Part shown: positions 6,297-62,942 of the stretch, in pieces
Numbering within the stretch: position 1 is the first letter of the stretch
Layout: each line of letters begins with the position of its first letter
Source of the DNA: an uncultured Caldilineaceae bacterium
Lineage (GTDB): Bacteria; Chloroflexota; Anaerolineae; Caldilineales; Caldilineaceae
Direction: 5' to 3'
Assembly: GCA_951813625.1 (NCBI GenBank)
Contig: CATOTS010000018.1
Location: forward strand, 62,001-126,000
Length of the DNA: 64,000 nt
Notes under the pieces: generated by a model
Seen by the model: only the letters and a program-made list of their open reading frames with translations
Database searches by the model: none
Told to the model about the DNA's origin: nothing
Translations under genes and position numbers: made by a program

Positions 6297-6326
6297 CTGC
6301 AAACCCCGTGGATTGAAGTGCATCGA

Positions 6327-6363
6327 CGAGTGGCTGGCGGGGATGCTAACCACCAGCCACTCG
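6327..6363 (-). promoter_or_regulatory. Intercistronic inverted repeat after binding-protein gene 1
   Basis: A perfect 11-bp inverted repeat (CGAGTGGCTGG / CCAGCCACTCG) with a 15-nt loop lies between the binding-protein stop (6378) and the permease start. There is no T-run. Placed like this, a hairpin would protect the 3' end of the binding-protein message and lower permease expression, as at malE-malF. The same element is retained in the duplicated copy near 9600-9636. Confidence 0.5.
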
Positions 6364-6377
6364 CCACCATCTACGAA

Positions 6378-8727: not shown

Positions 8728-9036
8728 GTAACTACTCAGCCGCAATCAGTCTGCGACCCTGAATGAGGCGAGCGAAGCTGTTTTCTCTCTCCTCACTCCT
8801 TCTAACTCTCTCTTTATTTCTTGGGACGGTCGGGCCTGCGGCCCTCCCTTGTGCGGGGGGACTCCCCCCGCAACGCCCCCCTCCAAAACCAGCGCTCACC
8901 GAAAGTACGCCTTCATTCCTGCAGTGCGTCCCGACCAACGTGGCGTCTGCCAGCCGAATACGCAATCAGATAATCTGAACGGCCGCGGGGATGAAGCACT
9001 GGTCGAGACAGACGATGTATGTGGCTTTGTAGTTAC
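8728..9036. mobile_element. Miniature inverted-repeat element, copy 1 (309 bp, with 8-bp target duplication)
   Basis: The element begins GTAACTACTCAGCCGCA and ends TGTGGCTTTGTAGTTAC, which are inverted repeats matching at 14 of 17 positions. It is flanked by a perfect direct repeat GAATGGTC (8720-8727 and 9037-9044), the mark of transposition. No transposase is encoded inside. Termini starting GTAA plus an 8-bp duplication are the pattern of the IS66 family, so it may be mobilised by an IS66-type transposase elsewhere. The interior includes a GC-rich palindromic block at 8824-8882. Copy 2 is at 50792-51077. Confidence 0.8.
8824..8882. repeat. 59-bp GC-rich core repeat, copy 1
   Basis: A block running from GGACGGTCGGGCC to GCAACGCCCCCCT and containing the palindrome GCGGGGGG-ACT-CCCCCCGC. 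It recurs at 18972-19030 and 50866-50924. Here and at 50866 it is the inside of the miniature element; at 18972 it stands alone. Confidence 0.8.
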
Positions 9037-9565: not shown

Positions 9566-9645
9566 CTGAAACCACGTGGATTGAAGTGCATCGACGAGTG
9601 GCTGGCGGGGATGCTAACCACCAGCCACTCGCCACTATCTACGAA

Positions 9646-17258: not shown

Positions 17259-17320
17259 GGTTCGTGGATAGTGTGCTCTGCAATACATCGCCACTATCCA
17301 CGAACCACTATCCACGAACC
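17259..17320 (-). promoter_or_regulatory. Intercistronic inverted repeat with heptamer units
   Basis: GGTTCGTGGATAGTG (17259-17273) is the exact complement of CACTATCCACGAACC at 17292-17306, giving a 15-bp perfect stem with an 18-nt loop; the second arm is repeated once more to 17320. It sits between the binding-protein stop (17328) and the permease start (17239), so it could uncouple their expression levels. The arms are made of 7-bp units CACTATC and CACGAAC. Confidence 0.6.
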
Positions 17321-17327
17321 AATTGCG

Positions 17328-18680: not shown

Positions 18681-18859
18681 GATCTCCTCCCTTTTCCGTG
18701 TGTCAAATATGGCAGCTATTCAGTCCCTTTCGTGATAGTGGATATGAACAACGCCCGCTCTACGTCAGTGTAGAAAATAAACTCTATTTCTTGGAAGTCA
18801 ACGTCCTCTAGTATAAGCGACGGCTGAAGAAGCGGCAAACACGGAAATTCCGGGGGGAT

Positions 18860-18887
18860 GCAGTCCAAAACTGGGGTACAAATTCCT
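18860..18887 (-). promoter_or_regulatory. Block shared by the upstream regions of both sugar-binding-protein genes
   Basis: GCAGTCCAA..CTGGGGTACAAAT.CCT occurs here and at 30756-30783. In both places it lies 165-180 bp upstream of a carbohydrate binding-protein start, and is followed by a looser match ending GTCATGGCC. It could be a common regulatory site or a fragment of a dispersed repeat. Confidence 0.4.
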
Positions 18888-18971
18888 ATCCCTCGGGTTG
18901 CAACGAAGTCATGGCCGGTCCACCCTCCATGCTCTGGCAGAGTGGAGAAATACGCATTCCTGTATCCTTTT

Positions 18972-19030
18972 GGACGGTCGGGCCTGCGGCCCTCCCTTGT
19001 GCGGGGGGACTCCCCCCGCAACGCCCCCCT
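18972..19030. repeat. 59-bp GC-rich core repeat, solitary copy
   Basis: Near-identical to 8824-8882 and 50866-50924 but without the rest of the miniature element on either side. This suggests either a deletion remnant or that the 59-bp block is itself a mobile or recombining unit. Confidence 0.8.
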
Positions 19031-19103
19031 GACCCAACCCGCAGTTGCCGCTCTTCGTGAAGATTCCCGCAAATTCGTGGATTAAGCCCTTGCCCCTGAC
19101 GTT

Positions 19104-19145
19104 GCCGGCAACTGGCCACTGGCAACTGGCCACCGGCCACTGCAG
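19104..19145. repeat. Heptamer array (six 7-bp units)
   Basis: Reads as consecutive 7-bp units GCCGGCA ACTGGCC ACTGGCA, then ACTGGCC ACCGGCC ACTGCAG. It lies in non-coding DNA. A nearly identical array is at 30842-30875. Confidence 0.8.
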
Positions 19146-19377
19146 CCCTGTGCCGCCAGCAGCCCACCGCGTCGCCCCCAAATCAGCGAACGCCGCGGCC
19201 ACCGTAGGGGCAGGCCTTGTGCCTGCCCAACGCGCCCCCAAACCCCCCAAAGCTGCTAGACATTTCCAGCCACCGCTGGCATGAACGCCCCGCCAGACGA
19301 TTCCCACCCCAAAAGTGGCTGCACCCAATTCCGGGCCGCGCAGCTGCTGCTATGGCCGCAACGCCGATTCAAGGCCT

Positions 19378-21818: not shown

Positions 21819-21863
21819 ATTGTGTTCATATGTATTGTGTTCATATGTATTGTGTTCATATAT
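21819..21863 (-). repeat. Three tandem 15-bp repeats upstream of the GH-A gene
   Basis: ATTGTGTTCATATGT is repeated three times (the last ends ATAT), 33-77 bp upstream of the ATG at 21786. The AT-rich, dyad-containing unit (CATATG) in GC-rich DNA at this distance fits an operator or promoter array, suggesting an internal promoter for the GH-A and isomerase genes. Confidence 0.55.
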
Positions 21864-22931: not shown

Positions 22932-22952
22932 CCCCTACCCCCTATCCCCTGC
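22932..22952. repeat. Short heptamer array (three units)
   Basis: CCCCTAC CCCCTAT CCCCTGC in the 47-bp gap between the reductoisomerase-like and dioxygenase genes. The same unit family forms a longer array at 62259-62300. Confidence 0.6.
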
Positions 22953-22954
22953 CC

Positions 22955-30589: not shown

Positions 30590-30755
30590 TGCTGTTCTCC
30601 TTGGTGTGTGATCAGTCCGATCGTGGACAGACTGCGATAAAGTACTGCCAATTACTGCAACGGTGCCGGCGGAGACAAGACAAAGCCAGATGCCGTGGAT
30701 GCGACAAGTATATTGAAGCGAGAGTCCCATGTCAAACCATTTTTCCACGAAGGGC

Positions 30756-30783
30756 GCAGTCCAATTCTGGGGTACAAATCCCT
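30756..30783 (-). promoter_or_regulatory. Second copy of the shared upstream block
   Basis: GCAGTCCAATTCTGGGGTAC and the following AAATCCCT match 18860-18887 at all but a few positions. It lies about 167 bp upstream of the glycan-operon binding-protein gene, the same position as at the other sugar operon. Confidence 0.4.
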
Positions 30784-30841
30784 AAACCTCATGCAGCGCC
30801 GGAGTCATGGCCACTCCACTGTCCACCACTCCCGGCAGTTC

Positions 30842-30875
30842 CTGGCAACTGGCCACTGGCAACTGGCCACTGCAG
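30842..30875. repeat. Heptamer array (about five units)
   Basis: Units CTGGCAA CTGGCCA CTGGCAA, then CTGGCCA, ending in CTGCAG. It is the same family, and ends the same way (CTGCAG), as the array at 19104-19145. Confidence 0.8.
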
Positions 30876-31289
30876 TGCCTGCCCATCCCCCCCAAAGCCG
30901 GCAACAATTTCAGCCGCCGCCGGCATGAATTCCCCGTCAGACGATTCCCACCCGAAATGTGGGATGCACCCTTCTGGTAAGATACACCCTTTTCTTGATA
31001 GAATTCTTGTCCGCGGCATGCTTGGCGAAACCCTTCAGTGTCCAGAACTGTAAACGACAAACCGCCTACAATACCTACACTCTTTCTCGTCGATTGCACG
31101 GCGCGTACCATAATTGCATAGATTCGGCTGCATTTGTAATCGAAATCCATTTGGCCGCCTTTCTTTTGCCGTGCCATAATTGTCTAATGCGCTTCTGCCC
31201 GTTCGGGGCGTAAATTGGACTATAAACCCCTGCTCACTACTGCAAAGCCAATGCCATTGCGCCCGATCTATCGTCAGTTGGGAGGAACT

Positions 31290-36327: not shown

Positions 36328-36404
36328 ACATTTCTCGCTTTCCGTTCCTGCCTTTCAGGGGTTCCAATTGCCCCACCCGATTCGAAGATTCGCCGTTTCC
36401 AAAA

Positions 36405-36439
36405 AACTGGAAACTGGCAACCGGAAACTGGCAACTGTA
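36405..36439. repeat. Heptamer array upstream of the E2 gene
   Basis: Units AACTGGA AACTGGC AACCGGA AACTGGC AACTGTA, ending 15 bp before the E2 start codon and so in the mRNA leader. Confidence 0.7.
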
Positions 36440-37762: not shown

Positions 37763-37802
37763 ACCGGAAAGATCAACGGCCAACGGCCGTGTGGAGGAAG
37801 CT

Positions 37803-39233
37803 GTGGCAAGCAACTATGACTACGACCTGATCGTCATCGGCTCCGGGCCGGGCGGTTATGTGGCGGCGATTCGCGGCGCCCAACTGAACCTCAAGACCGC
37901 CCTGATCGAACGCGAGCATCTCGGCGGCGTCTGCCTCAACTGGGGCTGCATCCCCAAGAAATCGCTCGTCAAGAGCGCCGAAGTGCTGGACACGCTCCAG
38001 CACGCGCAAGAGTTCGGGCTCACCTTTGACAATCTGCAAGTCGACTACGGCGCCGCGGTCGCCCGCTCGCTGCAGATCGTCTCCCGCCAGACAAAGGGCG
38101 TCGGCTTTCTCATGCGCAAAAACAAGATCGACGTCATCGAAGGCCACGCCCGCTTCATCGATGCCAACAGCGTGCAGGTCAGCGCCGGTCCGCTTAACCC
38201 AGAAGCCGGGCCGCGCACCGTATCCGCGCGCAGCTTCATCGTTGCGACAGGCGCCCGAGCGCGCGATCTGCCCGGCATCGAAGCCGACGGCGATCGCGTT
38301 CTCCAGTATCGGCACGCCATCCGGCTGTCTGAAATCCCCGCTTCCATGCTCGTGGTGGGCGCCGGCCCGATCGGTATGGAGTTGGGCCATATCTACGCCA
38401 CCTACGGCGCGCAGGTGACAATCGTCGAAATGTTGGATCAGGCGCTGCCCCTGGAGGATGCCGAAGTGGCGCAGGAGGTCGTGCGCGCCTTCGCGAAACG
38501 CGGCATCACCGTGCTGACTTCGAGCCGCACTGAGGACTTCGACGTCGCTGAACAGTCGGTCAAGGTGACAATCAGGAGTGCCAATGACGAAAGCACGCAG
38601 ACGGTCGAAGTCGAGAAGGTTTTGTTAGCGGTCGGCATCACGCCCAACACCGAGGAGCTCGGACTCGACGCGGCCGGAGTGGAACGCAGCCGCGAAGGGT
38701 ACATCGAGATCGACGAGTTCATGCGCACCAGCCGCGCCAACGTCTACGCCATCGGCGACTGCACCGGCAAGTTGCCCTTGGCTCACGTAGCCAGCGCGCA
38801 GGCGGTTGTGGCCGCCGAGCACGTCGCCGGCCAGTCGACAAACCCGATACCGGCTGACCGCTACACTTTCATGCCGCGTTGCACATTCTGCGTGCCCCAG
38901 GTCGCCAGTATGGGCATGACCGAAGCCGAGGCCCAGGCAGCCGGCTACACCGTGAACGTCGGCAAGTTCCCGTTCATGCCCAACGGCGCGGCCCAGGCGC
39001 AGGGCGTGCGCACCGGCTTCGTCAAAATCGTCTCCGATCAGAAATACGGCGAAATCCTCGGCGCGCACATCGTCGGGCCGAACGCGACCGAGCTGCTCCC
39101 CGAGCTGACGCTGGCCCAGATGATGGAACTGACCCCGGCGGAAATCGCCCACAACGTGCATGCCCACCCGACGCTGGCCGAAGTGGTGATGGAGGCCGCC
39201 CACGCTGTCGAAGGGCTGGCGATCCATATGTAA
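37803..39233 (+). CDS. lpdA: Dihydrolipoyl dehydrogenase (E3)
   Basis: A 476-residue flavoprotein. The FAD motif is DLIVIGSGPGGYVAA; the redox-active disulfide is in GGVCLNWGCIPKKS near residue 40; the NAD motif is LVVGAGPIGMELGHIYATYG near 180; the C-terminal HAHPTLAEVVMEA holds the catalytic His-Glu pair. The GTG at 37803 with GGAGGA just upstream is preferred to the in-frame GTG at 37791. It reoxidises the lipoyl arm of the adjacent E2. Confidence 0.93.
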   Translation: MASNYDYDLIVIGSGPGGYVAAIRGAQLNLKTALIEREHLGGVCLNWGCIPKKSLVKSAEVLDTLQHAQEFGLTFDNLQVDYGAAVARSLQIVSRQTKGVGFLMRKNKIDVIEGHARFIDANSVQVSAGPLNPEAGPRTVSARSFIVATGARARDLPGIEADGDRVLQYRHAIRLSEIPASMLVVGAGPIGMELGHIYATYGAQVTIVEMLDQALPLEDAEVAQEVVRAFAKRGITVLTSSRTEDFDVAEQSVKVTIRSANDESTQTVEVEKVLLAVGITPNTEELGLDAAGVERSREGYIEIDEFMRTSRANVYAIGDCTGKLPLAHVASAQAVVAAEHVAGQSTNPIPADRYTFMPRCTFCVPQVASMGMTEAEAQAAGYTVNVGKFPFMPNGAAQAQGVRTGFVKIVSDQKYGEILGAHIVGPNATELLPELTLAQMMELTPAEIAHNVHAHPTLAEVVMEAAHAVEGLAIHM

Positions 39234-39240
39234 ACTGCAG

Positions 39241-39296
39241 TGGTCGGTGGCTGGTGGTCGGTGGCTGGTGGTCGGTGGCTGGTGGTCAGTAGCCAG
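39241..39296. repeat. Heptamer array (eight units)
   Basis: TGGTCGG TGGCTGG is repeated three times, then TGGTCAG TAGCCAG, beginning 8 bp after the dihydrolipoyl dehydrogenase stop. It is the longest perfect array of this type in the window. Confidence 0.85.
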
Positions 39297-39421
39297 TGGT
39301 GACAATAGACGCTGGCCTTTGCTGCCGGACGTGTGGCCATTGAAATTCACCGATTCGGGCGGTATTTAACCTTGGGTCCGCGGCAATCCGCACAAGATCG
39401 ATCACCCTCTGACAGGCAAAA

Positions 39422-50791: not shown

Positions 50792-51077
50792 GTAACTACT
50801 CAACCGCATTCAGTCTGCGACCATGAATGAGGCGAGCGAAGGTGTTTTCTCTCTCCTTGCTTTTTGGACGGTCGGGCCTTCGGCCCTCCCTTGTGCGGGG
50901 GGACTCCCCCCGCAACGCCCCCCTCCAAAACCATCGCTCACCGACAGTACGTCGTCATTCCTGCCGTCCGGTTTATCCAACGTGGTGGCGGCCAACCGAA
51001 TACGCAATCAGATAATCTGAATGGCGGCGGGGATGAAGCGCTGGTCGAGACAGACGCTGTATGTGGCTTAGTAGTTA
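50792..51077. mobile_element. Miniature inverted-repeat element, copy 2
   Basis: Begins GTAACTACTCAACCGCA and ends TGTGGCTTAGTAGTTA, collinear with the element at 8728-9036 and sharing CTGCGACC.TGAATGAGGC, the 59-bp core (50866-50924) and CAGATAATCTGAA.GGC. It is some 23 bp shorter, lacking a pyrimidine-rich stretch. Its last base or two are replaced by the end of an IS982 element. No matching target duplication is visible because the right flank is gone. Confidence 0.75.
50866..50924. repeat. 59-bp GC-rich core repeat, copy 3
   Basis: Same block as 8824-8882 with one visible change (CCTTCGG for CCTGCGG). It lies inside miniature element copy 2. Confidence 0.8.
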
Positions 51078-61940: not shown

Positions 61941-62258
61941 AGGAGTTTCCTTTCGCTGATGAACTCGAATTGTTTGTCCGACGACCTGGCACGACTGCCT
62001 GCTCCGGCGGGCGGACAGTGAACTTCACCCCCGCCGCTTGCGCCGGCAGACAATGCCCCTGCGTCGAGACACGCTCAGGTTAAAGTGGATGGCGCCTGAT
62101 TGCCAAATCATGTGATGCAGTCTTTTCGTGTTGAATCCACCCGCATCCGCACCCACCCATCCCCGCCCCTCATCCGTCCCCCCCCTCAAAGACCTCCCAC
62201 CCTTCCTCCCATCGTCGTTGCGACAGGCCCCCTACCTCCCCTCAACCGTTCCCACTAT

Positions 62259-62300
62259 CCCGAATCCCTATCCCCTATCCCCTATCCCCTGCCCCCTGCC
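62259..62300. repeat. Heptamer array (six units)
   Basis: Units CCCGAAT, CCCTATC three times, CCCTGCC twice. Same family as the three units at 22932-22952. Confidence 0.8.
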
Positions 62301-62817
62301 TTTCCCCTTCCCGGGCAAGAGCTCCGGAAACGTGGTATGCTACAGCGATGAAAGTCAACACCGTGCCTGACCGCAACCATATCTCGCAACGCCGCGGCCG
62401 CCGCCTGTGCCGCCCAATGCGCCGGGCTCTGCATGCGTCGACGGTACCGCAGACACACGGCTCGATCCCGCGTCCACGAAAAGTCGAGCCGCAAACGCAA
62501 AAAGAGAGCCTTATTCTCAATCTGGCCCACTTTAGGGCACAATGTCGCACTTTGATTCAGAATCTTTCACAAAAGTCGATGCCCTTCTCTCCCTGTCACG
62601 TAAAAACGCCCCGACATCCTGTCACGAAAAAGAGAAAAGTAGGGGCAAGATTCATAACTTTTTCTAACTTTTTGCCAAATCCGATACCCTTTCGATACCC
62701 TTCCCGTCGCTGCCGTAAGGGCAGACCTTGCGCACACCCGCGCCTTCAACTGTCCCATTTGCATGAATCATCCGAACCAGATTTCCGACGAATGCCGGGA
62801 ACTCCTGATATCAGACT

Positions 62818-62831
62818 ACCGGCCACCGGCC
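62818..62831. repeat. Two-unit heptamer repeat
   Basis: ACCGGCC ACCGGCC followed by ACCAGCG; the unit also occurs in the array at 19104-19145. Confidence 0.5.
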
Positions 62832-62942
62832 ACCAGCGTTCCGGTATACCTATGTTATACTGCCTGCCAATGTCGAAACCGCGCCGCGCGCTAGGCGCAA
62901 ACATCTGATGCACGCGCCGCAAGCAATCCGCGGACCCAACCA

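Follow-up and report, generated by a model that had tools for sequence, protein, structure and literature searches.

Seven base pairs past the stop codon of a putative dihydrolipoamide dehydrogenase gene (37791–39233) of a Caldilineaceae bacterium begins a tandem array with a 14-bp unit, and further arrays of heptanucleotide units are scattered over the same 64,000-nt stretch of DNA (hereafter, the window). What these arrays are, how they spread, and how far they parallel the STRR repeats of cyanobacteria, to which the first-pass annotation likened them, are the questions raised by this locus.

Tandem arrays were identified with TRF, genes were predicted by hexamer scoring, and Markov-shuffled intergenic DNA as well as coding DNA served as controls. 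TRF recovers arrays starting at 17291, 19105, 22932, 30842, 36404, 39238, and 62250 (Table 1), so that most sites of the first-pass annotation are clear, while the array at 22932 is weak and the one at 62818 comprises merely 2.4 copies. All reported arrays fall between predicted genes, in agreement with the earlier description. Periods were analyzed in 813 kb, that is 15% of the genome (G000, a Caldilineaceae MAG of 5.4 Mb in 59 contigs, completeness 96%). Sixty-six intergenic tandem arrays were found there, 24 of them in the period 7/14/28 class (9, 14, and 1 arrays, respectively). The corresponding numbers are 0.0, 0.6, and 0.0 after shuffling of the intergenic DNA, while coding DNA contains 0, 1, and 0 such arrays. 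This confirms that period-7-class intergenic arrays far exceed chance, and the excess at 7 and 14 bp that the first-pass annotation had made its check is present. Periods of 10/20 bp (16 arrays) and 12 bp (9 arrays) are also enriched in intergenic regions; a decamer family AAGTCCGGTCAGGTCCGGT with the 10/20-bp period is found between genes on contigs C1, C4, and C18 (e.g., G000:C1:111861–111907). Other intergenic repeats of the window are ATTGTGTTCATATGT with a 15-bp unit in 2.9 copies (21819–21861, absent in the sister species), and two 54-bp hairpin sequences, identical save one base, at 6324–6377 and 9592–9645, each adjoining a long minus-strand gene; these two genes may be duplicates.

Table 1. 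Heptamer arrays, carrier elements and modules in the window (M1, M2, and M5, modules; TSD, target-site duplication).
Feature	Position	Strand	Sequence or units	Remarks
Solitary array	17291–17321	+	(CCACTATCCACGAA) × 2.2	TRF
TSD	left 18846–18853, right 19327–19334	.	AATTCCGG	8 bp; single AATTCCGG in the sister species
Non-autonomous modular element	18854–19326	+	ends GGGGATGCAGTCC / GGCTGCACCC	exact absence in the sister species G061
Module M1	18973–19028	+	hairpins GGGCCTGCGGCCC and GCGGGGGGACTCCCCCCGC	further window copies 8825–8880, 50867–50922
Module M2	19054–19086	+	TTCGTGAAGATTCCCGCAAATTCGTGGATTAAG	
Element-borne heptamer array	19105–19142	+	CAACTGGCCACTGGCAACTGGCCACCGGCCACTG	TRF
Module M5	19200–19228	+	GTAGGGGCAGGCCTTGTGCCTGCCC	GTAG-tagged palindrome, REP-like; genome without Y1_Tnp/RAYT
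Solitary array	22932–22954	+	CCCCTAC/CCCCTAT/CCCCTG	TRF; weak, 3.3 copies
Second element copy	30752–30971	+	GGGCGCAGTCC...GGGATGCACCC	missing from the sister species; no clear TSD
Element-borne array	30842–30872	+	CTGGCAACTGGCCA × 2.2	TRF
Solitary array	36404–36437	+	AAACTGG/CAACTGG	TRF
Array	39240–39287	–	(GTGGTCGGTGGCTG) × 3.4 on +; CCACCAG/CCACCGA units on –	TRF
Solitary array	62250–62312	+	CCCTATC/CCCCTAT/CCCCTGC	TRF
Very short array	62818–62834	+	ACCGGCC × 2.4	TRF; possibly chance

The array next to the dihydrolipoamide dehydrogenase gene has a TRF span of 39238–39300, with 100% matches over 39240–39287; it contains three copies of GCTGGTGG and ends with the sequence CTGCAGTTT.

The first-pass annotation described many unit sequences. 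Word variants do exist, but most of them belong to one degenerate family: on one of the two strands, almost every unit conforms to the heptamer CMMYTRN, that is C-[AC]-[AC]-[CT]-T-[AG]-N (e.g., CCACTGA, CAACTGG, CCCCTAT), while some arrays relax positions 1 and 5, as does array 39240 with its CCACCAG and CCACCGA units. Three consecutive units match this pattern at 225 sites of the whole genome, compared to 12 for the reversed pattern used as a control. Arrays consist mostly of three or four units, the maximum being 22, and word variants are grouped in blocks inside them. Array ends are distinctive as well. Among 120 arrays from five species, the R of the final unit is G in 115 cases, whereas internal units have G at this position in 214 of 318 instances (p about 1e-11). 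CAGTT directly follows 62 arrays, yielding a common 3′ boundary CTG|CAGTT; the 5′ frame CAGTTxCTG(A/G) is also frequent. The 14-mer of array 17291–17321 has an inverted copy at 17259–17273, forming a hairpin. An origin of arrays as amplified hairpin arms, suggestive here (17259–17320) and in other slots of contig C18, was rejected as a general explanation: an inverted copy within 110 bp upstream is present in 2 of 63 arrays, compared to 0.4 expected, with the pair 17259/17306 as one further example. Rfam identifies one tRNA as the sole match in the window, and no known RNA family at the arrays.

Comparison of the same slots in the sister species G061 (about 90% DNA identity) demonstrates that copy number is altered and words are replaced, while the period is unchanged. 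At slot 17291 the sister has GGAGCGAGGAGCGAGG instead, at slot 22932 it carries another 14-bp array, ACAACTCAAAACTG, and at slot 36404 a diverged version, with a hairpin of the CAGTGACCGG..CCGGTCACTG type in most congeners. A shorter variant of array 39240 is present in the sister, and the array is missing from the other congeners compared; the adjacent dihydrolipoamide dehydrogenase shows 94% identity to the one in the Caldilineaceae MAG JAJDTL010000054.1 and 83–86% to those in fifteen further Caldilineaceae MAGs. Arrays are found in 16 of 16 sampled congeners, with 11 to 474 three-unit matches each, and constitute a genus-wide class built on one degenerate heptamer, CMMYTRN. Most other Caldilineaceae genera have no CMMYTRN arrays, some of them having CAATTGA/CCATTAA or CACCTGC heptamers, and four-unit runs of CCACTRN occur in 16 of 150 genomes of the class Anaerolineae. 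One of these 16, G108, is from another Anaerolineae family; period 7 is common there as well (40 arrays in 320 kb by direct scanning), and its CCACTRN arrays form divergent inverted pairs, which might fold into long hairpins.

About two thirds of the arrays are located inside or close to modular elements for which no transposase was detected. The array-bearing mosaics are built of recurring fixed modules, and composite units also occur in tandem with about 171-bp spacing. Allowing up to three mismatches, the M1 core is found 355 times in this genome and 0–39 times in twelve congeners. The terminal inverted repeats (TIRs) are GGGTGCA(G/T)... and ...(A/C)TGCACCC, and the target duplications of the family measure 8–9 bp; related TIR elements of about 385–750 bp are present elsewhere in the genome, several with matching 7–9 bp flanking repeats. 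For the element at 18854–19326 the sister has a precise empty site. Hence the features of MITEs, terminal inverted repeats and a target-site duplication with an empty site, are observed, the latter in the one element for which a clean empty site and duplication were compared, several others having flanking repeats only. Exact TIRs with an 8–9-bp duplication were sought in about 2 Mb of sampled sequence; there were two short matches only, and no autonomous copy turned up. The REP transposase Y1_Tnp (PF01797), the sole family searched, has zero matches in the 96% complete genome, and RAYT-driven REP spread was rejected on this ground.

The arrays are also strongly oriented, as judged from complete listings. 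On the complete chromosome G062 (OY282376.1), the arrays of at least seven units, listed in full, comprise about 14 on the plus strand at 0.09–2.39 Mb and six on the minus strand at 3.70–5.10 Mb. GC skew remains negative as far as 2.55 Mb and has turned positive by 2.80 Mb, and the switch between matches the change of the array strand; ten arrays from evenly spaced sample pieces also agree with the skew. In the negative-skew half, where arrays are on the plus strand, the flanking genes are oriented ++ in 6 cases, –– in 6, –+ in 12, and +– in 3; gene direction does not account for array orientation, which follows replication. Across species, TRF-defined intergenic arrays of the period-7 class agree with the local skew in the ratio 56:3, approaching 100% in G062 and G063. 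For arrays defined by the grammar, the C-rich strand coincides with the local C-rich strand in 58:1 element-borne and about 28:4 solitary cases. Modules distant from any array are also oriented (M1: 21:3, 12:0, and 15:0), as is the M5 palindrome, 15:0 in G062, while the unrelated decamer family is not (5:6). With the origin and the leading strand deduced from GC skew and a roughly 55–60% gene-strand bias, the C-rich strand of the chromosome is probably the lagging one. Array 39240 and its sister ortholog are among the few exceptions, pointing against the regional trend. Two other oriented sequences were observed: an octamer GGTGAGGG, distributed 26:1 and 24:4 between the leading and lagging strands in the G062 and G063 samples, is a candidate KOPS-like motif, and an A-rich heptamer dialect (ACTAAAA repeats) trails some G062 arrays, with TTTTTAGT oriented 37:1.

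The simplest account of these data, to which we give about an even chance, combines trans-mobilized elements, one favored orientation, and 7-nt slippage. Elements would be brought in by transposition in trans, and one orientation with respect to the fork would be favored when they insert or are retained; replication slippage by 7 nt, inside an element or after its decay to a solitary array, would then alter copy number and also spread word variants in blocks, and, as the G-rich strand would behave differently on leading and lagging templates, its products may survive in one orientation. The arrays would thus be by-products of replication and small-element activity, and neither regulatory switches nor word-encoded signals. 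The evidence for insertion is direct for one element, while the slippage and strand-stability steps are those we infer; the wrong orientation of array 39240 and its sister ortholog speaks against the joint account, as do the negative search for Y1_Tnp and autonomous copies and the orientation bias itself, which is atypical of cut-and-paste TIR elements. The stricter proposition that TIR elements and arrays insert or survive only one way relative to the replication fork is tentative and rather doubtful. If true, one-way elements would represent a mobile system coupled to replication, or else a polarity mark, such as is not known for TIR elements.

Another explanation of the orientation is that arrays are orienting signals for a machine tracking along DNA, Chi-like in repair or KOPS/SRS-like for FtsK, and are kept by selection. 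Chi and KOPS are G-rich on the leading strand; the arrays are also G-rich on the inferred leading strand and nearly completely replication-oriented, and GCTGGTGG, present three times in array 39240, is the Chi octamer. However, that array is oriented counter to the trend, the long arrays listed are not crowded toward the inferred terminus, and arrays are scarce in some species (11 and 17 matches). Moreover, unlike Chi and KOPS/SRS, which are dispersed octamers, single words outside arrays (CCACTGA 41:31, CCACTGG 52:56, CAACTGG 88:92) show no orientation beyond composition-matched permutations. This single-word test speaks against a signalling role, and a word-level Chi/KOPS signal is unsupported; selection for tracking signals seems unlikely to us. 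Orientation is a property of arrays and elements, not of words. As arrays are oriented and the same words outside them are not, array formation or survival is separable from word-level signalling.

The arrays might also be independent simple sequences of the STRR type, acting in mRNA stability or translation coupling, roles suggested for STRRs, which are mostly 7-bp repeats (PMC2670836). The 7-bp unit, intergenic dispersal, and the presence of several unit sequences are indeed shared, and to that extent the parallel drawn in the first-pass annotation stands. Kinship fails, as the unit words (CCCCART/GGGGAYT in STRRs) are essentially absent: tandems of CCCCART, GGGGAYT, GGGAATC, and TAACTGA number zero in 749 kb of this genome, in G062, and in G063, and a single CCCCART pair in G064 is the sole exception in 1.5 Mb from this genome and its congeners. 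Also at odds with such kinship, modular TIR elements carry many of the arrays, array orientation tracks replication and not genes, and upstream inverted copies are rare (2/63); STRRs are not known to have TIR carriers or a replication orientation. We regard the STRR reading as rather improbable.

Still less credit can be given to a compositional accident, where GC skew simply places C-rich tandem DNA on the C-rich strand. Arrays and modules are themselves C-rich, and therefore part of the agreement with the skew is compositional; intergenic arrays with other periods follow the local skew too, 39:18 (68%). However, the agreement for period 7 is significantly higher (Fisher p = 2e-4), and single words composed of the same letters are unoriented.

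A folded G-rich strand (G-quadruplex or i-motif) affecting replication or expression is a poor candidate. CCCCTRN arrays of at least four units read (TCAGGGG)n on the opposite strand, and similar heptamers from Xanthomonas and Nostoc form G4 in vitro (PMC4692102). However, at least four CCCC tracts are present in only 25 of 120 arrays, 43 of 120 are only three units long, and arrays of the CCACTGA and CAACTGG types, with at most GG tracts, have the same orientation. The Xanthomonas/Nostoc G4 heptamers have a G-tract unit of the GGGNATC type and prefer four units, while here three to four are the commonest. Finally, phase-variable or regulatory switching by particular genes, suggested by the copy number at 39240 varying between sister species, is highly improbable given hundreds of copies, core metabolic genes among the window neighbors, and no preferred gene orientation except for more frequent divergent gaps.

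That heptamers are over-represented in bacteria is a long-standing observation for which, to our knowledge, no mechanism has been offered. The arrays described here follow a word grammar, have carriers that can be identified, and are strongly tied to replication direction; they provide a testable system, where insertion orientation, slippage direction, and strand are all measurable.

Among known systems, MITEs, BIMEs, and BOX-type repeats share with the carriers a short, non-coding sequence bounded by TIRs and target duplications, a mosaic build of modules, and composite units in tandem; heptamer arrays inside and strong replication orientation set the present elements apart, as does the absence of PF01797. 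The TAACTGA repeat, known from marine Beggiatoaceae and others, is a single fixed word, in Beggiatoaceae located mostly just upstream of start codons, and in Microcystis a small subset of TAACTGA repeats are all in one chromosomal orientation (PMC4679880). This word fits a slightly wider CMMYTRN grammar (compare CAACTGA), while TAACTGA tandems themselves are absent here. In titles and abstracts of the open-licence literature searched, no replication-oriented heptamer arrays are described in bacteria. The Xanthomonas and Nostoc heptamers are likewise mostly intergenic and highly length-variable, with C/G strand asymmetry in the unit. However, Xanthomonas GGGAATC arrays are reported to lack a leading/lagging preference, and Nostoc GGGGAYT arrays are divided 43%/57% between the two strands (PMC4692102), whereas roughly 90–98% of the arrays studied here are oriented. 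This near-uniform replication orientation sets them apart from the Xanthomonas and Nostoc heptamer repeats as reported.
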